A stretch of 47,581 nucleotides of DNA, from NCBI RefSeq assembly GCF_017302275.1, contig NZ_JAFLDR010000032.1, forward strand, positions 1 through 47,581. Reading direction: 5' to 3'. The DNA is from Sulfuritalea sp. Lineage in GTDB: Bacteria; Pseudomonadota; Gammaproteobacteria; Burkholderiales; Rhodocyclaceae. The notes below the pieces were generated by a model. It was not told where the DNA came from, did no database searches, and saw only the letters and a list, made by a program, of their open reading frames with translations. This document shows, piece after piece, positions 3,726 through 31,792 of the stretch. The number at the start of each line of letters is the position of its first letter. The first letter of the stretch is position 1. A program made the translations under genes and the position numbers.

Positions 3726-5141
3726 CTAGAAGCCGATCTTCGCGCGCAGGCCCAGCACCTTTACCGTCGGCGCCGTGGCGTTGCCGCCGGGCTGGCGGAT
3801 CCACTGGAAGTCCGGCGTCAGCTCGACATGGCTGTTGAGCTTGTAGCGGTAGTAGAGCTCGACCAGCTTTTCCGATCCGCCGGCCTGGTAGCCAAAATCG
3901 GGTACCGCATCGCCGTCGGCATCGATCGTCGGCGAGTCGTTGCGGAAATCCGCGCTGGTGCGCAGTGCGCCGAACGCGAGCCCCATACTGTCGGCGGCGC
4001 GCGACCAGGGATTGCCGGCCAGCTCGGCGCCCACCGTCAGCGCCCGGTCGAAGCGCACCTTGCCCTTGAGCTGGTGACCGTAGCGGCCGAACAGCGCCAG
4101 GTCGTCGGTGACTTTCTGGTCGGCGGAGAAGCCGATGCCCGAATGCCGGCGCTCGATCTGCTCGTAGTTGCTGCCACGCCCCTGGTTCCACAGATAGATG
4201 CGGTAGTTGCCCGCCAGGTGGTTGAAACGCGCGGCGGTTTCGGCCTGGGCGATGACGAGGGGACCGGCCAGCGAGCCGCTGAAATTGGCGCCGGGACCGG
4301 ATCCGAACATGCCGAACGAGAGCGCCCATTCGCCGCCCTTCCGTGCGCTGTTCTCATACTTGACGATGACGCCGGGCGCGAAGCCATAAGCATCGGCGCG
4401 GATGTCGCCCCCGGAATCGAGCAGCGGGTTGTGCACGAAGGCATTGTTGAGGAAGCGCGACGACTCGTCGTCGGCGATGCCGTTCTGGTCGAAGAAGACG
4501 AAGGGATCGATCTTGCCGGCCGTCAGGTACAGATGCTCGCGCGCATTGGCCTTGATGCCGTCATCCCGCAGCGGAACCTTGAGCTGGTACCAGGCCTGGG
4601 CCAGTATGGCGAAGGAGTCGTCGGCGCCGGCGTTGGTCTGGAACGCCGCGGTGTTGGCGGTGCTGGTGTAGGTCGGGCGCAAGCCGGTGCCGGTGCCCTG
4701 GCCGAAGCGGAAGTGGCTGAAGATCTTGCCCTCGGCATCGCCCATCTCGCCGCCGGGGAGCGTCACCGTCAGGTCGCCGCGATAGCTGGCGCGGGTTTCG
4801 TCGCTTGCGCTCGCCGTGTGGCCAGCGCCGACTTTCTGCACTACGCCGGTGAGGCTGCCGCCGACCTCGATACCTTCGAGCGCCTCGGCCAATTTCTTGA
4901 ACGGCCCCTGCATCGCCAGGGTCTGGGCTTCGGTGGCCTTCAGCCGGGTGGCGAGTTCTGGCTCTTTTTCGGAAATGCGTTCGCTGGCGAGGGCCTTTTC
5001 GAGATCCTTGTTCTGGCGTTCCAGCGCTTCGATACGGGCGGCCAGCCGTTTCATTTCCGCCAGCACGGATGCCATGTCGTTGGCCGCGGCGGGCATGGCG
5101 AAGCCGGCCGCCAGAAGGGCGGCGATCAGCTTGACGCGCAT
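3726..5141 (-). CDS. OprB/LbtU-like outer-membrane porin with N-terminal coiled coil
   Basis: A 471-residue protein with a signal peptide at 1-20 (cleavage after MPAAA). Residues of about 24-75 form a coiled coil typical of trimeric porins that bind peptidoglycan, followed by amphipathic beta strands and a terminal Phe (LRAKIGF), the hallmark of an outer-membrane barrel. The block 'LTAGKIDPFVFFDQNGIADDE' style region matches OprB-family carbohydrate porins and the related LbtU siderophore porins. ATG at 5141 follows the P19 stop by 2 nt. The position between P19 and cupredoxin suggests passage of iron or an iron chelate, which is inference. Residues 103-110 (KVGAGHTA) are encoded by a dispersed DNA repeat. 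Confidence 0.75.
   Translation of the reverse strand: MRVKLIAALLAAGFAMPAAANDMASVLAEMKRLAARIEALERQNKDLEKALASERISEKEPELATRLKATEAQTLAMQGPFKKLAEALEGIEVGGSLTGVVQKVGAGHTASASDETRASYRGDLTVTLPGGEMGDAEGKIFSHFRFGQGTGTGLRPTYTSTANTAAFQTNAGADDSFAILAQAWYQLKVPLRDDGIKANAREHLYLTAGKIDPFVFFDQNGIADDESSRFLNNAFVHNPLLDSGGDIRADAYGFAPGVIVKYENSARKGGEWALSFGMFGSGPGANFSGSLAGPLVIAQAETAARFNHLAGNYRIYLWNQGRGSNYEQIERRHSGIGFSADQKVTDDLALFGRYGHQLKGKVRFDRALTVGAELAGNPWSRAADSMGLAFGALRTSADFRNDSPTIDADGDAVPDFGYQAGGSEKLVELYYRYKLNSHVELTPDFQWIRQPGGNATAPTVKVLGLRAKIGF
4813..4835. repeat. Dispersed 20-bp repeat, copy in porin gene
   Basis: Matches the core GCCGTGTCGCCAGCGCCGAC at 19 of 20 positions (G for C at position 8). On the coding strand it gives the porin residues KVGAGHTA. 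See the copies at 12521, 16605, 23387 and 31773. Confidence 0.7.
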
Positions 5142-5143
5142 GA

Positions 5144-5692
5144 TCAGTAGCCCCCCTTCTTGCCGACGCCGGCGTAGGTGAATTCCCATTCGGCTTCGAC
5201 CGCCTTGAACCAGGGGCGCACGCCCGTGGCGCGATCGGTGTGGCGGCCGAAATGGTTGCCGCTGGCATTTTCCTTGGCGCCAGGCGGGTAGATGGTGAAC
5301 TTGACCCTGTACTTGCCCGGTCCCTTGAGCTTGACGTTGTCGCCGTAATGCGGGCCGTCGCTGGCGACCATGGGCATCATGTCGCCCTTGATGACCTCGT
5401 TGCCGCCGACCTTGGTCAGCTCGTACTTGACCAGCAGGTAGGGCACCCACATGCCTTCGGCAAAGCCGTTGGGATTGTTGCCCAGGGCGTGGATGTCCGC
5501 TTCGAGATGGATGTCCGACTCGGATGCCTTGCGCATGTGGCCCTCGGGTTCCATCTCGACGGCTTGCAGGTACACGGCGGCGACTTCCATGCCGGCGAGC
5601 TGCTTGGGCGTGCCAATCGGATATTCCAGCGCGGCGGCGGAGGCGGTCCAGAGCGTGGCGGTGATGGCGAGCAGGGACTGGGAAAAGCGCAT
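5144..5692 (-). CDS. ftrA: P19/FtrA-type periplasmic iron-binding protein (Tp34 family)
   Basis: A 182-residue protein with a signal peptide (1 to about 21, cleavage after ASAAA). It has the immunoglobulin-like fold markers of the P19/Tp34/FetP family: 'GMEVAAVYLQAVEMEP', 'SDIHLEADIHA' with two His that serve in the metal site, 'WVPYLLVKYEL' and 'YPPGAK..GNHFGRH'. Family members bind copper and ferrous or ferric iron in the periplasm and feed FTR1-type or MFS permeases. It is the first gene of the run P19-porin-cupredoxin-polyferredoxin, with a strong ribosome site (GGAGG at 5699-5703). The 127 nt before it separate it from bfr and may hold its own promoter; I see no convincing Fur site there. 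Confidence 0.88.
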   Translation of the reverse strand: MRFSQSLLAITATLWTASAAALEYPIGTPKQLAGMEVAAVYLQAVEMEPEGHMRKASESDIHLEADIHALGNNPNGFAEGMWVPYLLVKYELTKVGGNEVIKGDMMPMVASDGPHYGDNVKLKGPGKYRVKFTIYPPGAKENASGNHFGRHTDRATGVRPWFKAVEAEWEFTYAGVGKKGGY

Positions 5693-5819
5693 GGCAAACC
5701 TCCAAAGGAAATAAATCGGACTTTGGCTGGCTTGCCGTGCGCGGGGGGCGCGGCTGGCTGGCTGGAAATGCGTGGGTGGCGGACCGGGCGCGCTGCGCCC
5801 GCCGCCTGTAATGCCTGAA

Positions 5820-6302
5820 TCAGGAGCCGGACGGCGCTCCCATTTGTGTCTGCAGGTAGTTCTGGATGCCGACCTTCTCGATCAGCTCGAGCTGGGTTTC
5901 GAGGTAGTCGATGTGTTCTTCGGTGTCTTCGAGGATGTCTTCGAGGATCTCGCGCGAAACGTAGTCATTGACGCTTTCGCAATACGTGATCGCGGCCTTG
6001 GTGTCGGCGTGGGCGCCGCGTTCCAGGGTCAGGTCGCCGGCCAGGCATTCCGGCACGTTCTCGCCGATGATCAGCTTGTTCAGCGCCTGCAGGTTGGGCA
6101 GGCCTTCGAGGAACAGCACGCGCTCGATCAGGTGGTCGGCGTGGTGCATTTCCTCTATCGATTCCTTGTATTCGTGCTTGCCCAGTGCCTCGAAGCCCCA
6201 GTTCTTGTACATGCGGGCGTGAAGGAAGTACTGGTTGATCGCGGTCAGCTCATTGACCAGGCACTTGTTGAGCAGTTGGATGACCTTCTTGTCGCCTTTC
6301 AT
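5820..6302 (-). CDS. bfr: Bacterioferritin
   Basis: A 160-residue ferritin-family iron-storage protein, the standard length. Start MKGDKK matches the conserved bacterioferritin N-terminus, so the longer upstream frame was rejected. Ferroxidase ligands E18, E51, H54, E94 and H130 are present, and so is the haem-ligand Met52. At the position of E. coli Glu127 there is Thr (EDTEEH instead of RDEEGH). The protein would form a 24-mer storing ferric iron with haem b between subunits. It lies 13 nt after bfd, in the hemP-bfd-bfr unit, so iron storage and iron release are co-transcribed. A GC-rich hairpin without a T-run (5786-5800) follows. Confidence 0.95.
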
Positions 6303-6315
6303 GTCGATCTCCCGA

Positions 6316-6531
6316 TCACGCCGCCAGGGGCTGCGAACCCGAGACGGACAGTTGATGAGGCGCACGGGCATGAAGGTTGTTCTTCAGCACGTCGCGCGCG
6401 CAACCGGTGCAGCGACCACAGCAGGCGCCGACGCCCAGTTGCTCGCGCAATTCTCGCAGACTGCAGCAGCCTTCGGCGACGGCGCTGCCGATATCGCGTT
6501 CGGTCACGGCATTGCAAATACAGACGTACAT
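6316..6531 (-). CDS. bfd: Bacterioferritin-associated ferredoxin
   Basis: A 71-residue [2Fe-2S] protein with the BFD-domain cysteine pattern C4-x-C6 (CICNAVTE) and C38-x2-C41 (CCGRCTGC). Bfd docks on bacterioferritin and passes electrons through the haem to reduce and release stored iron. The usual family length is 60-75 residues. It lies directly upstream of bfr (13 nt) and downstream of hemP (13 nt), which fits the known Fur-controlled pairing of bfd and bfr. Two extra cysteines (C22, C23) are present in addition to the cluster ligands. Confidence 0.93.
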
Positions 6532-6544
6532 GGTGGCTCCAGGT

Positions 6545-6727
6545 CTATTTGGTCAGGATCAGCTTGTCTTGCCGGGTGCGGCGCAGCCGATAGGTTTCGT
6601 CGCCGTGGGCGATCAGGACTTCATCCCGCTCGCCGAGCAGCGCGGCGCTTTCCAGCAGGGAACCATCCCGCGCCGGGAGGGGCTGGGGTTCCGGCTTTCC
6701 GGTCGGCACTTGGGGCGTGGGCTTCAT
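6545..6727 (-). CDS. hemP: Hemin uptake protein HemP
   Basis: A 60-residue protein ending in YRLRRTRQDKLILTK, the conserved C-terminus of the HemP/HmuP family. In Burkholderia and Bradyrhizobium, HmuP-type proteins are needed for expression of haem-uptake genes. ATG at 6727 was chosen over a 104-codon upstream extension because family members are about 55-75 residues and the extension would cross the Fur-like site. It is the first gene of a hemP-bfd-bfr unit. No haem receptor gene is next to it, so here its role may be in the wider iron response; that is inference. Confidence 0.85.
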   Translation of the reverse strand: MKPTPQVPTGKPEPQPLPARDGSLLESAALLGERDEVLIAHGDETYRLRRTRQDKLILTK

Positions 6728-6752
6728 GGGTTCTTCGTCTCGGTAAATCGTA

Positions 6753-6773
6753 TTGGGAATGATTCTCATTGAC
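6753..6773. promoter_or_regulatory. Fur-box-like operator upstream of hemP
   Basis: Contains AATGATTCTCATT (6758-6770), a perfect AATGA/TCATT inverted repeat with a 3-nt centre, close to the Fur consensus half-sites. It lies 26-46 nt before the hemP start, between plausible -35 (TTCAAG on minus) and -10 (near CAATAC/TACGAT on minus) elements. Fe-Fur binding here would shut off hemP-bfd-bfr when iron is plentiful. The site is about 100 nt from the ppa -10 box and probably does not control ppa. Confidence 0.7.
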
Positions 6774-6869
6774 TTGAACCGTTTTGTCAACAGGGAAATG
6801 GGGCGTATGTGGCCAGCCCGTGATTTTTTGCCGATGGTTTTCGTCAGGAAGGCGAAATCTTGGCGACGG

Positions 6870-6875
6870 TATAAT
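6870..6875 (+). promoter_or_regulatory. Probable -10 box for ppa
   Basis: Perfect TATAAT 28 nt before the ppa GTG start. No good TTGACA-like element is seen at 16-18 nt spacing, so the -35 is weak or an activator is used. Confidence 0.5.
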
Positions 6876-6902
6876 TCAAGCTTTAACAAGAAGGAGTCTG
6901 CC

Positions 6903-7451
6903 GTGGGTCTCGATCGCGTTACGTCAGGCAAGGATTTGCCCAATGATTTCAATGTGGTTATCGAGATATCGATGCACTCGGAGCCGATCAAGTACGAGGT
7001 CGACAAGGAGTCGGGCGCGATTTTCGTCGATCGTTTCATGTCGACCTCGATGCACTATCCGTGCAACTACGGCTATATCCCGCACACCATTTCCGGCGAC
7101 GGCGATCCTGTGGACGTGTTGGTTCTGTCGCAATTTGCCCTCCCGCCGGGCGTCGTGGTGCGCTGCCGGCCGATCGGCATGCTCAAGATGACCGACGAGG
7201 CCGGCGAGGATGCCAAGCTGCTGGCGGTGCCGGTGGACAAGCTGACGCCCATGTACCGCAGCGTTTCCAGTCCGCGCGACCTGCCGCAACTGGTGCTCGA
7301 CCAGATCTCGCACTTCTTCGCCCACTACAAGGACCTGGAGCCCGGCAAGTTCGTCAAGATCAACGGTTGGGTCAATGTCGAGGAAGCGAAAAAGGAAATC
7401 ATGGACGGCGTCGCCGCCTACGAGGCCGCCAAGGAAAAGCCGGCATACTGA
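6903..7451 (+). CDS. ppa: Inorganic pyrophosphatase
   Basis: A 182-residue family I soluble pyrophosphatase that hydrolyses PPi to two phosphates and pulls biosynthetic reactions forward. The signature DGDPVDVLV (Mg-binding aspartates), the N-terminal '[13 protein letters not shown]' and 'CNYGYIPHT' are present. GTG at 6903 was chosen because it follows AAGGAG by a normal distance and gives the usual ~178-residue length; the upstream extension lacks family similarity. It is monocistronic: own -10 box before it and a strong terminator after. Confidence 0.96.
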
Positions 7452-7473
7452 GGCGCGCGTCCGGCCACCCAAG

Positions 7474-7497
7474 CCCGCCGCATGGCGGGTTTTTTTA
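7474..7497 (+). terminator. Rho-independent terminator of ppa
   Basis: CCCGCC (7474-7479), loop GCAT, GGCGGG (7484-7489) followed directly by a run of seven T. Confidence 0.9.
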
Positions 7498-7553
7498 TCC
7501 GCTATAGTTATGGCCCCGCTCGATTGGGCGGCCACGCCATCCCAGGATCGCCC

Positions 7554-9176
7554 ATGACCCGCCTGCGCATCGCCGTCGCCCAGTTCAACGCCGTCCTCGG
7601 CGACCTGGCCGGCAATTCAGCCCGCATACTGGAGTTCGCGCGGAGCGCCCGCGAGGCCGGCGCGCAGGTGCTGCTGACGCCGGAGCTGGCGCTCTGCGGC
7701 TATCCGCCGGAAGACCTGCTGATGCGGCCGGATTTCTATCGGGCCTGCGCCGCGCAGGTCGAGGTGCTCGCCCGCGCCGCGCCGCTGCCCATCGTACTCG
7801 GCTATCCGGAGCAGTCCGGCAGCCGCCGCTACAACGCGGCGGCCCTGCTCGACGGCGGCGAGGTGCGCGCCAACTACCGCAAGCATCGCCTGCCGAACTA
7901 CGAGGTCTTCGACGAGGAGCGTTATTTCGCGGCGGGCAGCGAGCCCTGCGTGATCGACATCAACGGTATCCGCTGCGGGCTGGCGATCTGCGCCGATGTC
8001 TGGGAATACGGCGCCGCCGAGGCGGCGGCGCTGGCCGGTGCGGAGCTGATGCTGACGTTGAATGCCTCGCCCTTCCACATGAACAAGCAGGCGCGGCGCT
8101 ACGAGGTGCTGCGCGACAGGGTGACGGCGACCGGCAAGCCGGTGATCTATGCCAACCTGGTCGGCGGCCAGGACGAACTGGTGTTCGACGGCGCGTCCTT
8201 CGCGCTCGACGGCCAGGGCCGCCTGGCCCACCAGTCGCCAGCCTTCGTCGAGGACCTGGCGATCATCGATTTTGCCGACGGCCAACTGCTGCCCGGCCGG
8301 ATCGCCGAAACGCTGCCAGTCGAGGCGGAAGTCTATGCGGCGCTGAAGCTGGGCGTCGCCGACTATCTCGGCAAGAACGGTTTTCCCGGTGCCATCCTCG
8401 GCCTTTCCGGCGGCATCGACTCCGCCCTGACACTGGCCATCGCCGCCGACGCCCTCGGCCCCGACAAGGTGCGTGCGGTGATGATGCCGTCGCCGTGGAC
8501 GGCGCAGATGAGCCTCGACGATTCCCGCGAGATGGTGAAGCGTCTCGGCGTGCAATACGACGAGATCCCGATCGCCGCCGCGATGGAGCAGTTCGCCGTG
8601 CTGCTGGCGCCGACTTTTGCGTCACTGGGCCCCAAGCCGGAGTGGGACACCACCGACGAGAACCTGCAGGCGCGCATCCGCGGCATGTTGCTGATGGCGC
8701 TCTCCAACCGCACCGGACGCATCGTGCTGACCACCGGCAACAAGAGCGAGATGGCGGTCGGCTACGCCACGCTTTACGGCGACATGGCGGGCGGATTCGC
8801 GGTGATCAAGGACGTGTTCAAGACCTTCGTCTATCGCCTGTCCGAGTACCGCAACACGCTGTCGGAGGCGATCCCGCGCAACATCATCACGCGCGCGCCC
8901 TCGGCCGAACTCAAGCCCGGCCAGACCGACCAGGACATGCTGCCGCCCTACGCGGTGCTCGACGCCATCATCGAGGCCTACATGGAGCGCGACGAAAGCC
9001 CGCGCCGGATCATCGCCGCGGGCCACCCCGAAGCCGACGTGCGCAAGGTGGTCGGCATGCTCAAGAAGAACGAATACAAGCGGCGCCAGGCGCCGGTCGG
9101 CATCCGCGTCACGCAACGCGGGTTCGGCAAGGACTGGCGCTATCCGATAACATCGGCTTACGCCGACGAATGGTGA
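7554..9176 (+). CDS. nadE: Glutamine-dependent NAD+ synthetase
   Basis: A 540-residue two-domain enzyme that amidates deamido-NAD+ with ATP, the last step of NAD biosynthesis. Residues 1 to about 250 are a nitrilase/CN-hydrolase glutaminase domain (TPELALCGYPPED with the catalytic Glu, 'YRKHRLPNY' with the Lys, 'GLAICADVWE' with the Cys). Residues of about 270-540 are the synthetase domain with the ATP pyrophosphatase loop SGGIDSALT and 'TTGNKSEMAVGY'. ATG at 7554 gives the usual length; an upstream start overlapping the ppa terminator was rejected. A TATAGT (7503-7508) could serve as its -10. Followed by a complex hairpin region and glnB. Confidence 0.95.
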   Translation: MTRLRIAVAQFNAVLGDLAGNSARILEFARSAREAGAQVLLTPELALCGYPPEDLLMRPDFYRACAAQVEVLARAAPLPIVLGYPEQSGSRRYNAAALLDGGEVRANYRKHRLPNYEVFDEERYFAAGSEPCVIDINGIRCGLAICADVWEYGAAEAAALAGAELMLTLNASPFHMNKQARRYEVLRDRVTATGKPVIYANLVGGQDELVFDGASFALDGQGRLAHQSPAFVEDLAIIDFADGQLLPGRIAETLPVEAEVYAALKLGVADYLGKNGFPGAILGLSGGIDSALTLAIAADALGPDKVRAVMMPSPWTAQMSLDDSREMVKRLGVQYDEIPIAAAMEQFAVLLAPTFASLGPKPEWDTTDENLQARIRGMLLMALSNRTGRIVLTTGNKSEMAVGYATLYGDMAGGFAVIKDVFKTFVYRLSEYRNTLSEAIPRNIITRAPSAELKPGQTDQDMLPPYAVLDAIIEAYMERDESPRRIIAAGHPEADVRKVVGMLKKNEYKRRQAPVGIRVTQRGFGKDWRYPITSAYADEW

Positions 9177-9688
<512 letters not shown>

Positions 9689-9703
9689 TGCGGCAAACTG
9701 GTT

Positions 9704-9768
9704 GGCCATCCCCCCGGCCCCCTTCCCGTGGAAGGGGGTGACCGAGCTAGTCCGCTGCGCTCGGCTAT
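9704..9768. repeat. Two-hairpin repeat element, copy 2
   Basis: GGCCATCCCCCCGGCCCCCT and GGAAGGGGGTGAC are the same blocks as at 9177-9275 but without the insertion. CCCCCTTCC and GGAAGGGGG pair around a 3-nt loop. A second stem CCGAGC...GCTCGG follows. It lies between the 3' ends of the convergent glnB and cNMP-binding genes. Confidence 0.65.
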
Positions 9769-10331
9769 TTCTTCGAGCCGTCAATGAAAGGCAGCAGCCT
9801 TTCGCCCGTTTCACGTAGCCGTTCCAGGCTGTGGTACAGGAGCAGCAGCAGCAGTTTGCTGCCCAGCGAGGGCTCGAGCAGCAGGATGTCATAGACGGTA
9901 TCGCGGGTCAGAACGGCGAAATCCGTTGGCTCCCGCGCGACGCAGGTGGCAAACCTCGGCTTGCCATCGATGATCGACATCTCGCCAAACGTGGCGCCCG
10001 GACCGATGACCGACAACAGCCTTTGCTGGCCATCGGCGTGCTGTTTGAGTATCGAAACTTCTCCGGTCAGCACGATGCCCAGAAAGTCACCGTCATCGCC
10101 TTCCCTTGCAATGACCTCGTCGCGCCTGGCGCAAAAACACTCCATCTTGGCGCACAGGCGCGAAATATCATGGTGGGTCAATTCCTGGAACAGCGAAATC
10201 CGGTCGACGAGTTCGAAGATTTCCTCCTCGTAACGGGAGCCTTTGCCAAGGTGGACGAGCCCCTCCAGGGCAGGCAACAAAGGCCTTCTGATGTTGAGGA
10301 CGGCAACTTCGGTGACAGCGTTATCGCTCAT
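9765..10331 (-). CDS. Stand-alone cyclic-nucleotide-binding domain protein
   Basis: A 188-residue protein with one cNMP-binding (CRP-like) beta-roll at about residues 40-160: 'LFQELTHHDISRLCAKMECF', 'GDDGDFLGIVLTGEVSI' and 'GPGATFGEMSIIDGKPRFATCVA', the last being the phosphate-binding cassette. The cassette has Glu in GEMS and Arg in KPRFA, so nucleotide binding is plausible. No C-terminal helix-turn-helix follows, only a Leu-rich helix, so it is not a CRP-type transcription factor. The role is unknown; such proteins act as regulatory subunits or partners. It is convergent with glnB. Minus-strand upstream sequence is AT-rich (TATGAA, TTTAATAC near 10340-10360) and probably holds the promoter. 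The 245 nt up to smr hold nothing else I recognise. Confidence 0.8.
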   Translation of the reverse strand: MSDNAVTEVAVLNIRRPLLPALEGLVHLGKGSRYEEEIFELVDRISLFQELTHHDISRLCAKMECFCARRDEVIAREGDDGDFLGIVLTGEVSILKQHADGQQRLLSVIGPGATFGEMSIIDGKPRFATCVAREPTDFAVLTRDTVYDILLLEPSLGSKLLLLLLYHSLERLRETGERLLPFIDGSKK

Positions 10332-10576
10332 GAATTTGGCTGAGTATTAAACATTTCATATATTGCTACTTTCGGCCTATTTTCCCCGGATTCATTGGCG
10401 CGTCAACGGCCCGTTCGGACTAACGGGTCAGGGAGCCGGGGCGGACCCCAACCATGTTTCGATGCCTGTTCCAGGTCCCTTGATGGAATTCCGGGGCTAT
10501 GCCAATAGTAATACAAGGGCTTTCTGGCCAAGGAGGGTGCGGGTCGGATCAGGGGCATCGGGAGCCGCCCGGGGAT

Positions 10577-11125: not shown

Positions 11126-11129
11126 GGGA

Positions 11130-12143
<1,014 letters not shown>

Positions 12144-12198
12144 GGCATGGCAACGATATAGATGGGCCGCATCGCGACGCTTTCAAGCGCCGCCGGCG

Positions 12199-13017
12199 CT
12201 AGCGCCAGCGGTTGATCGCGTCGCGGGTTTCCAGCGCCACCTTGCGCGCGGCGGCGGCATAGTCTTCGCCCTTGCCGGCGTAAAGGATGGCGCGCGAGGA
12301 ATTGATCATCAGGCCGCTGCCGGCGGCGGTCTTGCCGGCCATGACCGTGGCCTCGATGTCGCCGCCCTGGGCGCCGATGCCGGGCACCAGCAGCGGCATC
12401 TCGCCGACGATCTGGCGCACGCGGGCGATCTCGCCGGGGAAGGTGGCGCCGACCACCAGCGCGCACTGGCCCGTCGTGTTCCATTCCGCGGCGACTTTCT
12501 CCGCGACCAGCTCGTAAATCGCCGTGTCGCCAGCGCCGACTCTTTGAAACTGCAGGTCGCTGCCGCCGGGATTCGACGTGCGACAGAGTAGGATCACGCC
12601 CTTGCCCTTGTAAGCCAGCCAGGGCTCGACCGAATCGCGTCCCATGTAGGGGTTCACCGTCACCGCGTCGGCCCGGTAGCGCTCGAAGGCCTCGATCGCG
12701 TACTGCTCGGCGGTGCTGCCGATGTCGCCCCGCTTGGCGTCGAGGATCACCGGCACGCCGGGGTGCTTCTCGTGGATGTGCGCGATCAGGGCTTCGAGCT
12801 GGTCCTCGGCGCGGCGCGCGGCGAAATAGGCGATCTGCGGCTTGAAGGTGCAGGCCAGGTCCGCCGTGGCGTCGGCGATTTCGCTGCAGAAGCGGAAGAT
12901 GGCGTCCGGCTTGTCCTTGAGGTGGGCGGGAAATTTCGCCGGGTCGGGATCGAGTCCGACGCAGAGCAGCGAGTTGTTGGTCTTCCAGGCGGCGGTGAGC
13001 GATTCGATGAAGGTCAT
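12199..13017 (-). CDS. pyrF: Orotidine 5'-phosphate decarboxylase (group 2)
   Basis: A 272-residue enzyme converting OMP to UMP, the last step of de novo pyrimidine synthesis. 'CVGLDPDP' at the N-terminus, the catalytic '[12 protein letters not shown]' with Lys95, 'VNPYMGRDS' and '[20 protein letters not shown]' place it in the longer group-2 family found in betaproteobacteria and mycobacteria. Its ATG overlaps the stop of the MFS gene (ATGA). Residues 159-166 (RVGAGDTA) are encoded by a dispersed 20-bp repeat, in a surface region that is variable in the family. Confidence 0.94.
12521..12545. repeat. Dispersed 20-bp repeat, copy in pyrF
   Basis: GCCGTGTCGCCAGCGCCGAC at 12521-12540, used as the reference core. 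It is read on the coding strand as VGAGDTA. Confidence 0.7.
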
Positions 13018-16601: not shown

Positions 16602-16627
16602 GGTGCCGTCGCGCCAGCGCCGACTAT
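16602..16627. repeat. Dispersed 20-bp repeat, copy after crcB
   Basis: GCCGTCGCGCCAGCGCCGAC at 16605-16624 matches the core at 18 of 20 positions. It is non-coding, in the 165-nt gap between crcB and the convergent response-regulator gene. Confidence 0.65.
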
Positions 16628-16762
16628 TGGCCAGCCGCGCTTGATTCCGGTTCCGGAACCGGGTATTCACTCCAGCCATCCTGGCGTCGACCGGCGCAAC
16701 CTCGCCCGAGCGGCCCCGTTGGTTTCGATCCGGTTTTGTCGCGAGAGTTTCCGGGCGGACGG

Positions 16763-22628: not shown

Positions 22629-22662
22629 ACAAGGGCCCGGCATTACCGGGCCCTTGTCTTTT
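22629..22662 (+). terminator. Rho-independent terminator of dctPQM
   Basis: ACAAGGGCCCGG (22629-22640), loop CATTA, CCGGGCCCTTGT (22646-22657), then CTTTTC. A 12-bp perfect stem. Confidence 0.88.
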
Positions 22663-22774
22663 CTGCGTCCGGCGGGCCGTCATGCCCGAAAATGGGCAGG
22701 AAACTGAGATAAAATATCAAGTTAGGTTTTTTGCGCAATTTATTCTTGTAGTTCAACCTGTTCTGGAGAAAGTA

Positions 22775-23200: not shown

Positions 23201-23206
23201 GCAGAA

Positions 23207-24328
23207 ATGAGCGTCAACCTCCTCGATTTCGATGCAGAAGGCCTGAGCGCCTGGTTCGCACGGCAGGGCGAGAAGCCCTTCCGCGCGCGCCAGGTGCTGC
23301 GCTGGATCCATCAACGCGGGGAGGGCGATTTCAATGCAATGACCGACATTGCCAGGTCGCTGCGCGAGAAGCTCCTGGCCTCGGCCGCCGTGTCGCCGGC
23401 GCCGACTGTCAGCGACAAGCTGTCTGAAGACGGCACGCGCAAGTTCCTGTTCGATGTCGGCAATCGCAACGCGGTGGAAACCGTGTTCATTCCCGAGGAT
23501 GACCGCGGCACGCTGTGTGTTTCCTCGCAGGCGGGCTGTGCGCTGGAATGCGCGTTCTGCTCCACCGGGCGCCAGGGCTTCAACCGGAATCTGACCACGG
23601 CCGAAATCATCGGCCAACTGTGGCAGGCCAATCGCGCCCTGGGGTTTGCCCCCGGGGGCGAACGCATCATCAGCAACGTGGTGCTGATGGGCATGGGCGA
23701 ACCCCTGGCCAACTTCGACAACCTGGTGCCCGCCCTGCGCCTGATGCTGGACGACAACGCCTACGGCCTGTCGCGGCGGCGCGTCACGGTGTCCACCTCG
23801 GGTATCGTGCCGACCATGGACAGGCTGGCCGAGGCCTGCCCGGTGGCGCTCGCCGTTTCGCTGCACGCGCCGACCGACGGCCTGCGCAACAGGCTCGTCC
23901 CGATCAACCGCAAATATCCGCTGGCTGAGCTCATGGCGGCGTGCCGGCGCTACCTGGTCCATGCGCCGCGCGATTTCATCACCTTCGAGTACGTGATGCT
24001 CGACGGGGTCAATGACAGCGACGCCGATGCCCGCGCGCTGCTGCACCTGGTGCGCGACGTACCCTGCAAGTTCAACCTGATCCCCTTCAACCCGTTCCAA
24101 GATTCCGGTTTCCGTCGTTCCCCGGCGGAACGGGTGCGGCGCTTCGCCACCCTGCTCATCGATGCCGGCATCGTTACCACGATCCGCAAGACGCGCGGCG
24201 ACGACATCGATGCCGCTTGCGGACAGCTGGCGGGACGGGTGCAGGACAAGTCGCGGCGTGTGGTTCGTCTTGCCGCTTCGGCCAGCGTGACGGCTGGCAG
24301 CCTTGCTGGAGTTGAACTGCACCCATGA
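23207..24328 (+). CDS. rlmN: Dual-specificity 23S rRNA/tRNA methyltransferase RlmN
   Basis: A 373-residue radical SAM enzyme methylating C2 of A2503 in 23S rRNA and A37 in some tRNAs. The radical-SAM cluster motif C111-x3-C115-x2-C118 (CALECAFC) and the catalytic cysteine in '[11 protein letters not shown]' near the C-terminus are both present. It also has 'GMGEPLANF' for SAM and the N-terminal RNA-binding helical region. Residues 62-67 (AVSPAP) fall in a dispersed DNA repeat without length change. Its stop overlaps the pilW start (ATGA), the conserved ndk-rlmN-pilW order. Confidence 0.95.
23387..23406. repeat. Dispersed 20-bp repeat, copy in rlmN
   Basis: GCCGTGTCGCCGGCGCCGAC, 19 of 20 identical to the pyrF copy. 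Here it is read in the opposite sense relative to the gene (VSPAPT), unlike the porin and pyrF copies. Confidence 0.65.
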
Positions 24329-25113
24329 ACAATACGATCCTGGTTCTTTCGATGGCGTTCCTGCTGGCGGCCTGCACCACGTCCGGGTCCGGTTCCGGCG
24401 AGGGCGCGCAGCAGGCGGTCTCGGCACAGCCCGCGGCCAGCGAACAGCAGCAACGGGCCAGGGTCCATGTCGAACTGGGCTCCCTCTACCTGCTCGACGG
24501 ACGCTTTGCGATTGCGCTCGAGGAGGCGCGCATCGCGCTCGCGGCCGATTCCGGCTATGCGCCGGCCTACAACCTGCTGGGCCTTACCCACATGGGGATG
24601 AACGAGCCCGGACTGGCCGACGAAAATTTTCGGAAAGCCCTCGGTCTGGCTCCCGGCGATCCGGAAATCAACAACAACTACGGCTGGTTCCTTTGCCACA
24701 ATGGTCGAGAAAAGGATTCGATCGGCTATTTCACGGCGGCGGCAAAGAACCCGCTGTATCCGACGCCGACCAAGCCCTACACCAACGCCGGAATCTGTTC
24801 CCTGCGCATGAAGGACGACAAGGCCGCCGAGGATTACCTGCTGTTGGCGCTGCGTTTGTCGCCGACCAATACGCAGGCTCTGTACTGGCTGGCGGACATC
24901 GCCTATCGCAAGGGCCGCCTTGCGGAAGCCCGCCAGTGGGCGACCGATATCGAAAGAATGATGGAACCGACGGCCGAGCTCGTTTGGCTGGCCTTGCGCA
25001 TCGAGCGCAAGCTTGGCAATCGGGATACGGAAGCGCGCTACGCATCGCAATTGCGCCGCCGCTTTCCCGGGTCGCCGGAACAGCGCCTGATGAACCAGGG
25101 GCAGTATGACTGA
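24325..25113 (+). CDS. pilW: Type IV pilus biogenesis/stability lipoprotein PilW (PilF)
   Basis: A 262-residue outer-membrane lipoprotein. The signal peptide ends with lipobox LLAAC17, and the mature protein is made of about six TPR repeats ('[29 protein letters not shown]', '[15 protein letters not shown]'). PilW/PilF pilots the secretin PilQ to the outer membrane for pilus assembly. The conserved neighbours rlmN upstream and rodZ downstream support the call. It overlaps rodZ by 8 nt. Confidence 0.91.
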
Positions 25114-25954
25114 GGCACCAGTGACGGAATCCGCCGTACCCGAAGCGGAACAACCCGGCGCGACGCCCGCCGACAATTCGGCCGAACCGGCGCTGTCGAA
25201 CACGCCGGGCGCGGTCTTGCATCGCGCGCGGGAAGAGCGCGGCCAGTCGATTTCCGACGTGGTGCAGGTAATCCGGTTCAGCGCACGCCAGATCGAGGCG
25301 CTGGAGCGCGACGACTACGCCGCCTTGCCGGGTCCCACCGCTGTTCGCGGGCTGGTGCGCAACTACGCGAAGTTCCTCAAGCTCGATCCGACTCCACTGC
25401 TAGCCCAGCTCGATCCGGCGGTACCGATTCCGGAATCCGACGTCCGTCCGCCCGCCAACATGGGGGAGGCCGAGGATTCGACCCTTGTCGAGAAAAGCTC
25501 CGCCAGCCTGCCGGCCATCGTCGCGGTACTTGTGCTCCTTGCCTTGGGAGCCTATTGGTTTCTCGTCATGTCCGGTTCCGACGAGCCGCCGGGCACGTCC
25601 GCCGTCTCCGGCATCGTGGCGCCGGCAACGAATCCGCCGACCTCGCCGCCCGTGGCTCCCGTGGTCGTGCCGACGCCGCCGACGACCGTCGAGGGCGCGC
25701 CGGTCGTCGCGCCACCGGCGGGCGGACTGCGCGTTGAATTCGACGACCGGTCCTGGGTCGAAATACGCGACGCGACGCAAAAGATCGTATTTGTCGGCGA
25801 GTACCCGGCCGGAACCCGGCAGGACGTCGACGGCAAGGCGCCGTTCCAGATCTGGATAGGCAAGGCATCCGGCGTGCGACTGTTCATGGGTGAGCGCAGC
25901 ATCGACCTCAAGCCGCATACCCGCGAAGAAGTCGCGCGGTTTACACTCGAATGA
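25106..25954 (+). CDS. rodZ: RodZ-like helix-turn-helix membrane protein
   Basis: A 282-residue bitopic protein. The cytoplasmic part has an Xre-like HTH at about 34-100 ('[21 protein letters not shown] ... [11 protein letters not shown]'), the domain that binds MreB in E. coli RodZ. One TM follows at 136-155, then a Pro/Val-rich periplasmic linker (about 165-210) and a beta-rich DUF4115 domain ('[21 protein letters not shown]'). It helps set rod shape with MreB. It overlaps pilW by 8 nt and ispG by 4 nt. Confidence 0.9.
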
Positions 25955-27204
25955 GCGGCGTTTCCCGGGGCTTGGCGGCGCGGCGGAGCAGTCGCCGCGT
26001 CATGGTGGCGAAAGTCAGCGTTGGTGGTACGGCGCCCGCATCACCGGTGGTCATCCAGTCCATGACCAATACCGACACCGAAGATGTATTCACGACGTCC
26101 ATGCAGGTGGCGCAACTGGCGCGCGCCGGGTCCGAACTGGTGCGCATCACCGTCAACACACGCGAAGCCGCCGCCGCCGTGCCGAAGATTCGCGACCGAC
26201 TGGCGCAGATGAACGTCGACGTGCCGCTGATCGGAGACTTCCATTTCAACGGGCACAAGCTCCTCGCCGAGCATCCGGCATGTGCCGAGGCGCTGGCCAA
26301 GCTGCGCATCAATCCGGGCAATGTCGGCAAAGGGGCGCGGCGCGACGAGCAGTTCGCGCAATTGATCGAGATCGCCTGCAGGTACGACAAGCCGATTCGC
26401 ATCGGGGTGAACTGGGGCAGCCTCGACCAGGCGCTGCTGGCCCGCATCATGGACGAAAACGCCACGCGTGCGGAGCCCAAGGATGCGACCGAGATCATGC
26501 GCGAAGCGATGGTGACCTCCGCCCTGGAATCGGCGGCCCAGGCCGAAGCACTGGGCCTGCCCGGCGACCAAATCATCCTGTCATGCAAAGTCTCCGGCGT
26601 GCAGGACCTGATCGCGATCTATCGCGAACTCGCGCGGCGCTGCGACTACCCACTGCATCTGGGCCTGACCGAGGCCGGCATGGGCAGCAAGGGCATCGTC
26701 GCGTCGACCGCGGCGCTGGGCGTGCTGCTGCAGGAAGGCATCGGAGATACCATCCGCGTGTCGCTCACCCCCGAGCCCAACGGCGACCGCACCCGGGAAG
26801 TGATCGTCGCCCAGGAGATCCTGCAGACCATGGGCCTGCGCGCATTCACTCCGCTGGTGGCGGCCTGCCCCGGTTGCGGACGCACCACCAGCACGGTGTT
26901 CCAGGAGCTGGCGCAGGATATCCAGAACTACGTGCGCGAGCGCATGCCGGAATGGCGCCTCGCCCGGGTCGGCGTCGAGAACATGACGCTGGCCGTGATG
27001 GGCTGCGTGGTGAACGGTCCCGGAGAAAGCAAGCACGCCAGCATCGGCATCTCGCTGCCCGGTACCGGCGAGGCGCCCGTGGCTCCGGTATATGTCGATG
27101 GCGAACGTGTCGTCACGCTGCGCGGCGAGAACATCGCCGCGGAGTTCCGTCAGATCGTTGACGACTACGTTTCGAGAAAGTATCCGGAAAGAGCGAGTCA
27201 CTGA
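25951..27204 (+). CDS. ispG: 4-hydroxy-3-methylbut-2-enyl diphosphate synthase
   Basis: A 417-residue iron-sulfur enzyme of the MEP isoprenoid pathway, converting MEcPP to HMBPP. The TIM-barrel part carries '[13 protein letters not shown]' and 'RINPGNVG'. The C-terminal part has the [4Fe-4S] cysteines in 'ACPGCGRTT' and '[14 protein letters not shown]'. Its ATG overlaps the rodZ stop (ATGA). The segment [13 protein letters not shown] near residues 20-32 resembles the dispersed repeat, but it also fits the normal family start, so I do not count it as a copy. Confidence 0.95.
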
Positions 27205-27249
27205 TCGCGATTGGCGCAGTACCAACGCGCCTGCCGAAATAGACAAAAC

Positions 27250-28557
27250 ATGAGCCAGACATTGCAAGCCATCCGCGGCATGAACGACATCCTGCCGGTC
27301 GAAGCCGAACTCTGGGAGCAGTTCGAGGAGGCCGTGCGCGACTGGCTGCGTGCCTACGGCTACCGTCCGATACGCATGCCGATGGTCGAACCGACACCGC
27401 TGTTCGCCCGCGCCATCGGCGCGGTGACCGACATCGTCGAGAAGGAGATGTACTCCTTCGAGGACGCCCTGAACGGCGAGAGCCTGACCCTGCGCCCGGA
27501 GGGCACGGCGTCCTGCGTGCGCGCGGTGCTGCAGCACAACCTGCTTTACGACGGACCCAAGCGCCTCTGGTACATGGGCCCGATGTTCCGCCACGAACGG
27601 CCACAGAAGGGCCGTTACCGGCAGTTCCACCAGGTCGGTGTCGAGGCGCTGGGGTTTCCCGGACCCGACATCGATGCCGAGCAGATCGCCATGTGCGCAC
27701 GCCTCTGGGACGACCTCGGGCTCGAGGGCATCCGCCTTGAAATCAACTCGCTCGGCCAGAGCGACGAGCGCGCGCGGCATCGCGCCGACCTGCAGGCCTA
27801 TCTCGAAGGGCATCGCGAGCAGCTCGACGCCGATGCCCAGCGCCGCCTGCACAGCAATCCGTTGCGCATCCTGGATACCAAGAATCCTGCGCTGCAGGGT
27901 ATGGTCGAGGCAGCGCCGAAGCTGATCGATTATCTCGGCGAGGAGTCCCTCAAGCATTTCGAAGGCGTGCAGCAGTTGCTCAAGGATGCGGTGATTCCGT
28001 ACCGGATCAACCCGCGCCTGGTGCGCGGCTTGGACTACTACAACCTGACCGTGTTCGAGTGGGTGACGGACCAGCTCGGGGCGCAGGGTACCGTGTGCGC
28101 CGGAGGCCGCTACGACGGACTGGTCGCACAGCTGGGTGGCAAGCCCCAGCCTGCCTGCGGTTTCGCCATGGGCGTCGAGCGCCTGCTGGCGCTGTGGCAG
28201 GATCAGGGGCACCGTCATGAAGTGCCGGCGCCCGACGCGTATCTTGTTCATCAGGGCGAGGCCGCCGGACGATTTGCCTTTCGCATCGCCGAAGCACTGC
28301 GCAGCGGCGGATTCACCATCCACCTGCATTGCGGCGGCGGCAGCTTCAAGTCGCAGATGAAAAAGGCCGACGCCTCTGGCGCGCAGCTTGCGCTGATAGT
28401 CGGCGATGACGAGACGGCCGCAAACGAGATAAGCGTGAAACCCCTGAGGTCGGATGCCGATCATCCGGCGGCGCAGGTACGCGTGAGTTTTGACCAACTG
28501 GCCGATCATCTCGGCGATATTCTTTTTCCCATGGAAGACGACAATGGCAGCCTATGA
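27250..28557 (+). CDS. hisS: Histidyl-tRNA synthetase
   Basis: A 435-residue class II synthetase. Motif 2 region '[29 protein letters not shown]' has the catalytic Arg, the histidine-specific motif is [11 protein letters not shown], and motif 3 is '[12 protein letters not shown]'. The C-terminal ~90 residues are the anticodon-binding domain. Start [16 protein letters not shown] is the family N-terminus; the earlier ATG was rejected. It overlaps yfgM by 14 nt. Confidence 0.96.
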
Positions 28558-29209
28558 CCTGGAAGAACAGGAACAGCTCGACGAGCTGAAGACCTGGTGG
28601 AAGATGTACGGCAACCTGGTGACCGGGTTCCTGCTCGTCGTGGCGCTGGCCATGGCCGGCTGGCAGGGCTGGAACTGGTGGCAGCGCCAGCAGGCCGTCG
28701 AGGCGTCGGCGGTGTTCGCCAACTTGCAGGCCGCCGCGATGCAGCGCGACGCAAAGCGCGTCCGCGAACTGGCCGGAGAACTGGTCGACAAGTACTCCGT
28801 GACGGCTTATGCCGGCATGGGCGCATTGCTCGCGGCGCGGGTTCAGGTGGATACTGGCGATGCGCGCAATGCCCGCGTGCAGCTTGCGTGGGCGGCTGAA
28901 AACGCCAAGGACCCGGGTTTGCGCGAGTTGGCCCGGCTACGCCTGGCGACACTGCTGCTCGACGAAAAGTCCTACGATGAAGCGATGAAGCAGCTTGCAG
29001 CGGAACCGGCGGCGCCGTTCGCGCCGCGGTTCGCGGAACTGCGCGGCGACATCCTTGCCGCCCAGGGGAAAGCCGCCGAGGCGCGGGACGCCTATGACTC
29101 CGCGCTGACCAAGCTCGCGGCGCTGGCCAAGGACGACGAAGCCAGCCAACGCGCCGGCTACAAGGATGTGCTCGAAGCCAAACGCGACGCGCTCGGGGCG
29201 GCCAAGTGA
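28544..29209 (+). CDS. yfgM: YfgM-like ancillary SecYEG translocon/BamB-linked protein
   Basis: A 221-residue protein with a cytoplasmic start, one TM at about 24-42 ([22 protein letters not shown]), and a periplasmic TPR-like helical domain ('[25 protein letters not shown]'). E. coli YfgM sits at the SecYEG translocon with PpiD and hands over periplasmic proteins. It is found between hisS and bamB in many proteobacteria, as here. It overlaps hisS by 14 nt and directly precedes bamB. Confidence 0.9.
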
Positions 29210-29220
29210 GGCTGCCCGCC

Positions 29221-30363
29221 ATGAGGTTTTCCCTGCTTGTCGCTGGCGCGTTTGCCCTGGGCGCCTGCTCGAGCGTGGAGAAGCTCAACCCCTTTGCTTC
29301 CAGCGGGCCCAAGGTGAAGCCGGCCGAACTGGCAGCGATCCAGGCCAGTGCCGAACTCAAGGGCTTGTGGCAGGCCGGTGTCGGCAGCGCCGGCGAATTC
29401 ACCTTCTCGCCCGCGGTGGTTGGCGAGAGCGTCTATGCAGCGGCGCGCGATGGCTCGGTGGCGCGTTTCGACGCCGGCCGCCAGGTCTGGCGCATCGCGG
29501 CCGGGCAGGCCATCTCCGGCGGCGTCGGCAGCGACGGCAAGCTGGTGGTGGTGGGAACGCCCAAGGGGGAGGTGCTGGCCTTCGAGGCGGCCACGGGCCG
29601 CGAAGCATGGAAGGCACGGGTTAGCTCCGAGGTGCTGGCGGCGCCGGCGGTGGCGGAAGGACTGGCCATCGTTCGTTCCGGGGATTCGCGCATCTTCGGC
29701 TTCGATGTAGTGGATGGCAAACGGCGCTGGGTGTACCAGCGCAGTACGCCGCCCTTGTCGCTGCGTTCGAACGTCGGCGTGCTTCCCGCCGGAAAGTTCA
29801 CGCTGGCCGGCTTCCCGGGCGGCAAACTGGTGGCGATCGCCAACAACAATGGTGCGGCGGTATGGGAGGTCACGGTGGCCCTGCCCAAGGGTGCCACCGA
29901 ACTGGAGCGTGTGGCCGATATCACCAGTGCGCCGGTGGTCAGCGGCAGCACCGTTTGCGCTGCGGCCTTCCAGGGGCGGGTCGCATGTTTCGACAGCAAT
30001 ACCGGCAACACGCTCTGGTCGCGTGAAATGTCGTCCAGCGCCGGCGTCGACATCGACGACCGCCGTGTCTATGTGGTGGATGACAAGGGCGGCGTGCATG
30101 CGCTGGATCGCAACAGCGGGGCAAGCGTCTGGAAGCAGGACAAGCTCGCGCTGCGCGGGCTTACGCGTCCGCTGGCACTGGATGGCCGTGTCGCCGTCGC
30201 CGACTATCAGGGTGTGGTACACCTGCTGCGCGGTGACGATGGCGCGTTCGCCGCCCGTGCCAGCACTGATGGCAGCGCGGTGCGCGCCGCCCCGGTCCGC
30301 TTCGCTGGCGGATTGCTGGTGCAGACCGCGAACGGCGGCCTGCATGTGCTTGAAGTCCGCTGA
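29221..30363 (+). CDS. bamB: Outer-membrane assembly factor BamB
   Basis: About 380 residues with a lipoprotein signal peptide ending LGAC and eight PQQ-like beta-propeller blades ('VYAAARDGSVARFDAGRQVWRIAAG', 'VYVVDDKGGVHALDRNSGASVWKQD'). BamB is the propeller lipoprotein of the BAM complex that inserts beta barrels such as porins. ATG at 29221 with GAGG upstream gives a compact signal peptide. A GTG at 29206 overlapping the yfgM stop (GTGA) is the alternative start. der follows after 48 nt. Confidence 0.92.
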   Translation: MRFSLLVAGAFALGACSSVEKLNPFASSGPKVKPAELAAIQASAELKGLWQAGVGSAGEFTFSPAVVGESVYAAARDGSVARFDAGRQVWRIAAGQAISGGVGSDGKLVVVGTPKGEVLAFEAATGREAWKARVSSEVLAAPAVAEGLAIVRSGDSRIFGFDVVDGKRRWVYQRSTPPLSLRSNVGVLPAGKFTLAGFPGGKLVAIANNNGAAVWEVTVALPKGATELERVADITSAPVVSGSTVCAAAFQGRVACFDSNTGNTLWSREMSSSAGVDIDDRRVYVVDDKGGVHALDRNSGASVWKQDKLALRGLTRPLALDGRVAVADYQGVVHLLRGDDGAFAARASTDGSAVRAAPVRFAGGLLVQTANGGLHVLEVR

Positions 30364-30411
30364 TTTCGTGCGCATTCGTCGCACGCACAATGCCGTGGTT
30401 GGCGGTACGGG

Positions 30412-31770
30412 ATGAAGCCGACGCTGGTGATCGTCGGCCGCCCGAACGTCGGCAAGTCGACCCTGTTCAACCGCCTGACACGCTCGCGTGATGCGCTGGT
30501 CGCCGATCAGCCGGGATTGACCCGCGATCGTCATTACGGTCACGGGCGCCTCGGCAGCAAGCCCTACCTCGTGGTCGATACAGGAGGCTTCGAGCCGCAG
30601 GCCAAGGAAGGCATCGTCCATGAAATGGCGCGCCAGGCGGAGGCGGCGATCGCCGAGGCCGACGTGCTGGTCTTCGTGGTGGATGTGCGTACCGGCCTGG
30701 CGCCGCAGGATCGGGTCATCGCCGAACTGCTGCGCCGCAGCGGGCGCCCGGTGCTGCTCGCGGCGAACAAGGGCGAAGGAATGGATCGCGCCGTGGTTGC
30801 AGCCGAATTCTACGAACTCGGCTGCGGCGCCCCCTGTGTCATATCCTCGGCCCACGGCGAGGGCGTGCGCGAGCTGGTCGAACTGGCGCTGGCGCCGTTT
30901 CCGGGCGAGAGCGAAGCCGAAGACGCGACGGCCGGCCCCCGTGTTGCCATCGCCGGACGGCCCAACGTCGGCAAGAGCACGCTGGTCAATACGCTGCTCG
31001 GCGAAGAGCGGGTGATCGCCTTCGACATGCCCGGCACCACGCGCGATGCGATCGAGGTTCCCTTCGAACGCAATGGCCGTGCCTACACCCTGATCGACAC
31101 GGCGGGCTTGCGGCGCAAGGGCCGGGTGTTCGAGACCATCGAGAAGTTTTCGGTGATCAAGACCCTGCAGGCGGTGGAGGAGGCCAACGTGGTGGTGCTG
31201 ATGGTCGATGCCACCCAGGAAATCTCCGACCAGGACGCGCACATCGCCGGGTTCGCGATCGATGCCGGGCGGGCGCTGGTCGTTGCCGTCAACAAGTGGG
31301 ATGTGGTGGACGACTACCGGCGCGAGCAGATCAAGCAGGACGTGGCGCGCAAGCTGAACTTCCTCGGTTTCGCCCGGGTTCATCACATCTCGGCGCTCAA
31401 AGGTCAGGGCATTGCTGGCGTCCTGACCTCGGTCGACAAGGCGTACGCCGCGGCCATGGCCAAATTGTCTACGCCCAAGCTGACGCGGGTGCTGATCGCC
31501 GCCCAGGAAAAACAGGCGCCGCCGCGCCATGGCGCGTTTCGTCCCAAATTGCGCTATGCCCACCAGGGCGGCAGCAATCCACCCGTAATCGTCATCCACG
31601 GCAATGCGCTCGAACACATTCCCACGTCCTACACCCGCTATCTGGAACGTTATTTCCTCGAGGCGTTCAAACTGCAGGGCACTCCATTGCGCATCCAGTA
31701 CAAGACCAGCAAGAATCCTTTTTCACAAGAGGGGCGGCCGGTCAAACCGAAACTTCGGCGCGAAAAGTGA
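30412..31770 (+). CDS. der: Ribosome biogenesis GTPase Der (EngA)
   Basis: A 452-residue protein with two tandem GTPase domains, each with a P-loop [10 protein letters not shown] (residues about 7 and 183) plus DTGG/DTAG switch II and NKGE/NKWD G4 motifs, then a KH-like C-terminal domain. Der acts in late 50S subunit assembly. The order bamB-der-hfq-hflX is conserved in betaproteobacteria. A dispersed repeat begins at the base after its TGA. Confidence 0.96.
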
Positions 31771-31792
31771 AAGTCGGCGCGGGTGGCACGGC
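31771..31792. repeat. Dispersed 20-bp repeat, diverged copy between der and hfq
   Basis: The reverse complement of 31773-31792 matches the core at about 17 of 20 positions. It lies right after the der stop and 61 nt before the hfq ATG, so it would be in the hfq 5' leader or promoter region. Confidence 0.5.

Follow-up and report, generated by a model that had tools for sequence, protein, structure and literature searches.

A word of about 26 bp, repeated several hundred times in the genome of Sulfuritalea sp., was studied starting from a stretch of 47,581 nucleotides of this genome (contig NZ_JAFLDR010000032.1, positions 1 to 47,581; hereafter, the window). In our opinion, this motif, TCGCCGTgtCGCC(A/G)GCGCCGACTtTt, which is non-palindromic and has copies on both strands, is probably a DNA uptake sequence (DUS) of a third family. 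Its recogniser would be a surface DNA receptor of competent bacteria, and its driving force the bias of uptake. This reading is based on the origin of the copies by substitution, their conserved positions, their placement at permissive sites and use of gene ends, as well as on their near-absence from stretches of low guanine plus cytosine (GC) content, two of which carry conjugation genes, the gapped distribution over the family and the presence of dialects. The same features make up the uptake-sequence signature recorded in several papers (PMC2397512, PMC1626085, PMC12616744, PMC5031613, PMC13020248, PMC3630211). Self-recognition uptake tags are otherwise described from two bacterial families, and the motif appears to represent a third such system.

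The original prediction, made from the window alone, had described a 20-bp sequence recurring five times, in the porin, pyrF and rlmN genes and after crcB and der. All five places are real and agree with the 20-mer to the extent claimed (Table 1), but the count was too low, since four more copies were found (29 −, 28399 −, 30185 + and 40151 −); these nine matches at up to three mismatches compare with 0.04 expected, and none of 100 shuffles reached nine. The 20-mer does recur, but as part of a longer unit, which extends from about 2 bases before it to 4 after it, with low information beyond that range; the 20-mer is followed by T in 96% of copies and then by T or C. The consensus, T C G C C G T g t/c C G C C A/G G C G C C G A C T t T t, was derived from those 68 of 69 copies that have complete flanks; the sample, 448 kb in all, consists of the window and 20 stretches of 20 kb from the same genome.

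The genome-wide count proposed in the original prediction gave 353 forward and 374 reverse matches at up to three mismatches, 727 in total, or about one motif per 6 kb, in the window's genome, G000 (4,409,354 bases in 88 contigs). This is about 90 times the 3 + 5 = 8 matches of the reversed pattern. A weight matrix trained on the G000 sample found 73 sites with a score of at least 20 and 79 of at least 12 in the 448 kb (0 and 2 in the reversed-sequence controls), and in 400 kb of G002, a single-contig genome outside the training set used as an independent check, 69 and 75 sites were found against none in either control. The motif sites form a discrete score class. For further counts, the cut-off was set at 18, which gives 11 sites in the window, plus one doubtful site. 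The strands are balanced in the genome-wide totals, taken without regard to replication arm (353/374 in G000 and 341/342 in G002), and both are represented in 20 evenly spaced stretches throughout G002; an apparent clustering of the G002 copies on one strand was an artefact of a partial list.

It is practically out of the question that the motif is an artefact of the composition or codon usage of GC-rich DNA. The motif is indeed GC-rich and its common copies are open in the frames seen, but such an artefact would have to produce 727 matches against 8, a discrete score distribution, copies on both strands and between genes, and counts close to zero in the majority of genera of this family.

The motif has a gapped distribution. 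At up to three mismatches, 55 to 721 matches were found in each of 30 searched genomes of the same genus, 3 to 6 in six sister-genus genomes (controls 1 to 8) and 0 to 12 in 24 genomes from other families of the order. The survey of the window's family, comprising 395 genomes at up to two mismatches, gave 19 to 537 matches in 23 genomes of the window's genus (g1) and showed the motif to be abundant in five further genera: g32 (305), g62 (476), g70 (133–390 in 4 genomes), g88 (156–263 in 9) and g43 (84–421 in 17 of 19 genomes, the exceptions being G293 with 0 and G305 with 14). The counts are 23 and 0 in g47, 10 in g80 and 18 in the variant genus g69, and all other genera of the family have no more than 8 matches per genome. 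Among 399 genomes of the order, only members of this family (of g1, g43 and g70) were rich, and the others had 0 to 5. Named records among the 80 matches listed, of at least 115 stretches, are mostly Sulfuritalea sp., unclassified Rhodocyclaceae or Rhodocyclales; NCBI taxonomy places Sulfuritalea within Sterolibacteriaceae.

In five motif-poor genomes (G483, G047, G436, G598 and G109), some of the few exact or near copies lie close together, at least two of them within about 10 kb of the same contig, and these clusters are due either to contaminating contigs or to the import of DNA from motif-bearing bacteria. The motif was also found in at least 120 stretches of IMG/VR viral contigs (loci L144–L263), where host DNA, proviruses and phages are pooled; the fetched loci have 0.18 copies per kb, a figure inflated by the choice of the loci, which were selected for the motif.

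The origin of individual copies was studied using the regions from rlmN onward of 15 genus members and five sister genera, several contigs being shorter than asked. Copies at the same place (score of at least 16) were found in 12 of 16 genus genomes for rlmN, 12 of 16 for hisS and 8 of 16 for rnr, the window's genome included, and no copy was found in the rlmN-onward stretches fetched from the five sister genera. The intergenic copies at 26009 and 31768 have counterparts in 11 and 9 of the 15 relatives, respectively, recognised by matching distance from rlmN and the same orientation and not by base alignment; in G007, the counterpart of the post-der copy lies inside the der reading frame. Alignments of rlmN, hisS, bamB and rnr between motif-bearing and motif-free genera are ungapped at the motif, the bamB of G029 having one extra codon immediately before it. 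As the copies in these four genes show no alignment gap, they arose by substitution and not by insertion. The orthologues of motif-free genera, whose comparison had been suggested along with the genome-wide count, differ at the site in their codons and, for the most part, also in the peptide. The idea of a small element inserted in frame thus gives way to base substitutions in existing codons, and an inserted micro-element, such as a miniature inverted-repeat transposable element (MITE) or the Rickettsia palindromic element type, was rejected on the same alignments.

In rnr, motif-free genomes have the peptide IKAVL, IKAAL or IKAVI at the site, and motif-bearing ones IKSAL, encoded by ATA AAG TCG GCG CTG. 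The IKSAL form is present in g1, where G013 has it with ATC and it is degraded in G021 and G025; it is also present in g32, g62, g88 and g70 (G153, and G099 with ATC). In g43, the rnr motif was found in G177 and G305, the latter with one further change, is degraded in G370 and is missing from G072 and G293. Many deep nodes of the rnr tree are poorly supported, so both an ancestral motif with losses and a repeated gain are compatible with it.

In pyrF, the copy falls into a loop whose length varies, and it was left out of the insertion test; in G016, this gene (L304/L306) has an in-frame, glycine-rich expansion of about 20 codons at the motif site, with motif-like units. Among eight further proteins compared with homologues from PDB, five were informative, and four of these (NAD synthetase, D-hydroxyacid dehydrogenase, CbbY and the ComM homologue, whose gene carries a motif copy in the window's genome) are ungapped at the motif; the comparison was uninformative at the motif for the proteins of L342, L335 and L344. 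Codon conservation within the motif is 0.91 in hisS against 0.64 for the gene (6 of 433 codon windows as high), 0.75 against 0.64 in rlmN (65 of 352) and 0.76 against 0.61 in rnr (38 of 730), the last two being weakly raised. It is not raised in bamB (0.48 against 0.55), where only two of the species have the motif.

Short dispersed sequences in hundreds of copies are also formed by repetitive extragenic palindromic (REP) elements and their paired forms (REPIN), which belong to REP-associated tyrosine transposases (RAYT). A REP-like or MITE-like element spread by such a transposase could account for the number, shortness and dispersal of the copies; moreover, a Y1_Tnp transposase was matched in 16 of 28 genomes, several of them motif-bearing, and the motif-free sister-genus genome G034 contains an abundant word which we take to resemble known REP elements. 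This explanation is nevertheless extremely unlikely. The motif is non-palindromic, 46 of 74 copies in G000 and 38 of 70 in G002 lie in genes, and no insertion footprint was seen in rlmN, hisS, bamB or rnr. Nor does the transposase track the motif, being unmatched in the motif-rich G018, G072, G177, G091 and G117 and in G098, and matched in the motif-poor G034, G036, G071 and G135.

Gene calls, made by a simple codon-model finder written for this analysis and not by a published annotator, place 28 of the 74 copies of the G000 sample outside genes, where 19% of bases are non-coding (81% coding), and 32 of the 70 copies of G002, where 12% are non-coding (88% coding); the binomial p values of this excess are 1e-4 and 7e-12, respectively. 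Two copies of the window had been described as non-coding (16605 and 31773), which these calls bear out, and that at 26009 is non-coding as well. Gaps between convergent genes hold 13 of 31 intergenic copies of G002 in 12.7% of intergenic bases (p 5e-5), and 9 of 25 in 20% of intergenic bases of G000 (p 0.05). Among 48 intergenic copies, 79% lie within 60 bp of a gene 3′ end, in comparison with 52% of random places in the same gaps.

This enrichment, together with two inverted motif pairs of G002 with perfect hairpins of 23 to 26 bp, would be expected if the motif were mainly a transcription terminator or gene-end signal and its in-gene copies were by-products. Over half of all copies, however, are the in-gene ones, relative to the gene end, the motif has the same orientation in 20 cases and the opposite one in 28, and a special hairpin with the left flank (z < −2) was found in few intergenic copies (10 of 55, four of which are the two pairs; 6 of 84 in genes), which makes this explanation very unlikely. 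The suggestion that the motif is an RNA-binding site is not supported: within genes, 21 copies are sense and 22 antisense, and a special hairpin is lacking in the majority of the intergenic copies. It was correctly claimed, on the other hand, that common protein function does not explain the recurrence, the sequence being spread genome-wide and read at the DNA level; the peptides are VGAGDTA in pyrF and AVSPAPT in rlmN, and that of the porin had to be changed from VGAGDTA to VGAGHTA.

Five low-GC stretches of the G000 sample (GC < 0.60), a grouping decided once the copy counts had been seen, contain 2 copies in 100 kb, compared with 72 in 348 kb elsewhere (p = 2e-6). Ten proteins were scanned from three of them (L011, L012 and L013; L014 and L025 were left out). 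Conjugation proteins (TraI_2, TraH, TraC and TrwB/TraG-type) were found beside metabolic and regulatory ones in L011 and L012, and SAVED, HipA-like and methyltransferase proteins in L013.

The spelling of the motif differs between lineages. Base 16, numbering from 1 within the 20-mer, is C in 79 of 79 copies of G000 and 72 of 73 of G002, and T in 40 of 42 copies found in 227 kb of G098 (genus g69). Ten of the 20 stretches in the G098 sample were picked because they hold a listed match; in the ten others, T was found in 15 of 16 copies. The matrix, being trained on the C form, is biased against finding the T form. At the rnr site of G098, where the peptide is KST, the T form is present as well. 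Matches to the pattern CCRGCGTCGACTHTT number 180 in G098, 50 in G011, 12 in G236, 10 in G069 and 5 in G398, while the other genomes among the 395 have between 0 and 3 each.

G011 belongs to the window's genus, and the closest genome in a genus tree of 14 proteins from the rlmN–rnr region, G005 (support 1.0), has zero CCRGCGTCGACTHTT. In 171 kb of G011 taken regardless of variant, there are 36 copies, 22 with T and 14 with C, and a strict count of the triplet at bases 16–18 over 191 kb gave TCT 10, TCG 9, CCG 8 and CCA 1, with the spellings interleaved on single contigs. The rlmN site reads CCG CCG ACT in G005 and CCG TCT ACT in G011. Because T and C copies are mixed, more than one spelling is in use at once in G011.

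Another genus member, G017, has 55 copies and is nested in the genus as sister to G025, which has 234 (support 0.89). A copy with a score of at least 18 was found in 25 of 30 fetched loci, and the hisS site holds a weakened copy (score 14.4). This pattern fits decay of the motif. The rlmN of G017 resembles the motif-free form, and recombination or another position in the tree may be considered for this genome.

The proposed mechanism can be summarised as follows. The competence (type IV pilus) machinery would recognise the motif as a self-mark, and free DNA carrying it would be taken up preferentially and then recombined into the genome. Alleles mutated towards the motif would be taken up more often; as a result, permissive sites of either strand would gain copies by substitution, and the uptake bias would keep them. 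Foreign DNA would come without motif copies. A shift in receptor preference would change the motif genome-wide, producing dialects, and copies would decay where the uptake bias had been lost.

The main rival is a genome-wide site for an intracellular protein serving nucleoid organisation, recombination, segregation or a defence self-mark, selected for itself and co-evolving in specificity. Substitution origin, conservation and dialects are all expected in this case too, and the link to the cell surface is inferential, the searches for ComEC and ComP_DUS having given none. Genome-wide over-represented words such as the highly iterated palindrome HIP1, Chi and the FtsK orienting polar sequences (KOPS) are partly read by proteins, but they have about 8 bases and are palindromic or strand-biased, whereas the motif has about 26 bp, is asymmetric and has no overall strand bias in the forward and reverse totals given above, which are taken without regard to the replication origin. 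Its copy number is far above that known for matS or parS sites, and asymmetric sites of this length and number (about 26 bp, several hundred copies) are not known from any intracellular system. In addition, the motif resembles uptake sequences in favouring permissive places and in being nearly absent from low-GC stretches. An intracellular site is, on balance, rather unlikely. Also unlikely, in our estimate, is a genome mark of a novel kind, that is, a word of about 26 bp without symmetry, which substitutions would have written into several hundred places and which would be read intracellularly for organisation, recombination or discrimination of self from non-self, with G011 in the middle of a switch.

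Several observations weigh against the motif as an uptake sequence. The same pattern could result from any protein-binding site spread over the genome whose protein evolves. Matches to the Competence family (ComEC type) were found in 22 of 22 genomes, and equally in motif-free genera, the motif-scarce G017 and E. coli, so that this family gives no evidence either way. Pfam ComP_DUS (PF16732) also has matches in all 22 genomes, six motif-free genera among them, and these are a mixed set of pilins; as neither family discriminates motif-bearing from motif-free genomes, no receptor is named. Evidence from synonymous codons is mixed, their conservation appearing clearly raised in hisS alone, and even there the ATA codon, kept in 12 of 12 motif-bearing genomes, is also present in G017 and the motif-free G034. 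Against its PDB homologue, HoxF has two gaps of two residues each at the motif. Inverted pairs are few: the 848 kb sampled from G000 and G002 contain two, both in G002 and with short T tails to their hairpins, and a further 2.2 Mb of fetched loci contain none. Finally, the motif, with about 26 bp, is longer than the cores of known uptake sequences (9–12), and its density is about five-fold below that of the exact DUS of Neisseria meningitidis, of which about 1900 are recorded in 2.2–2.3 Mb (PMC3630211).

The motif shares with the Neisseriaceae DUS many short non-palindromic copies in permissive places of the core genome (PMC2397512, PMC3630211), absence or scarcity in acquired DNA, lineage dialects, a two-dialect genome and, in the two pairs of G002, possibly terminator-like inverted pairs. 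Inverted DUS pairs act as terminators and DUS are absent from recently acquired genes (PMC2397512), and Simonsiella muelleri has two dialects in one genome (PMC3630211). The differences are that the consensus is unrelated save GCCGT (the DUS being AT-GCCGTCTGAA), that the DUS has 10–12 bp, that the family is another one, that inverted pairs are very few here and that the present motif is known from sequence alone. With the uptake signal sequence (USS) of Pasteurellaceae, the motif shares an origin by point substitution and a preference for non-coding places, with many copies nevertheless in genes (PMC1626085); there, Redfield et al. showed by a gap test of this kind that USS are not insertions. 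The USS core AAGTGCGGT is unrelated, and USS hosts belong to the class Gammaproteobacteria; their receptor, ComN, is only predicted according to PMC12616744. Unlike REP and REPIN elements, the motif is non-palindromic, largely in genes, without insertion footprint and independent of the presence of Y1_Tnp. Among the papers listed by searches of the open-licence literature, preprints excluded, some treat the two families already known or transformation in other organisms, and no title concerns this group, which does not imply absence from print.

If the motif is an uptake sequence, it would be a third independent case, in environmental Betaproteobacteria, and uptake self-marking would evolve repeatedly. 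One family would then include genera that have the mark, lack it, seem to have lost it and have re-spelled it, as well as one genome (G011) apparently part way through a dialect switch. It would become testable whether receptor bias (molecular drive) alone writes such sequences. The motif could also be used to trace gene flow from motif-bearing bacteria.

Table 1. Motif copies of the window with their matrix scores and surroundings
Feature	Position	Strand	Score	Location	20-mer	Remarks
Motif copy	24..51	−	33.3	In short called gene (1–354, −) without Pfam match	29	
Motif copy	4810..4837	+	35.9	Antisense in OprB-family porin gene	4813, 19/20	Peptide VGAGHTA
Motif copy	8592..8619	+	32.7	In NAD synthetase gene		Peptide AVLLAPT; found by matrix
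Weak, doubtful motif-like site	11611..11638	+	15.2	In called gene (11130–12083, −)		Under cut-off 18
Motif copy, exact core	12518..12545	+	42.4	Antisense in pyrF	12521, exact	Peptide VGAGDTA; length-variable loop
Motif copy	16602..16629	+	33.0	Intergenic, core 7 bp past CrcB-family gene	16605, 18/20	
Motif copy	23384..23411	+	33.1	In rlmN	23387, 19/20	Peptide AVSPAPT; ungapped against 15 genomes outside the genus
Motif copy	26009..26036	−	20.7	Intergenic, between RodZ-like gene and ispG		Found by matrix
Motif copy	28394..28421	−	25.3	Antisense in hisS	28399	Same place in 11/15 genus relatives, all with ATA codon
Motif copy	30182..30209	+	30.4	In bamB	30185	Within the panel, only in the window's genome and G029
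Motif copy	31768..31795	−	28.5	Intergenic, directly after der	31773, 17/20, other strand	
Motif copy	40146..40173	−	35.1	Antisense in rnr	40151	Peptide IKSAL; also in g32, g43, g62, g70 and g88 genomes, T form in g69

Some other repeats and genes were observed in the course of the analysis. The abundant word of G034 lies around TGTGGGAGCGGC (loci L429–L448), and its 12-mers occur 45–47 times in 400 kb against 0.03–0.09 expected. In the G000 sample, a second over-represented 12-mer, CCGGCAACGACA, has 11 copies against 0.25 expected, and the whole 20 kb of L010 (contig 1, 40001–60000) is called as one open reading frame encoding a giant protein. The window contains two terminator-like inverted repeats unrelated to the motif, both at or near a gene end: a perfect one of 23 bp at 9640–9688 and an imperfect one of 31 bp at 45381–45446. 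It also includes a gene of the flavocytochrome c sulfide dehydrogenase type, which fits a sulfur oxidiser.

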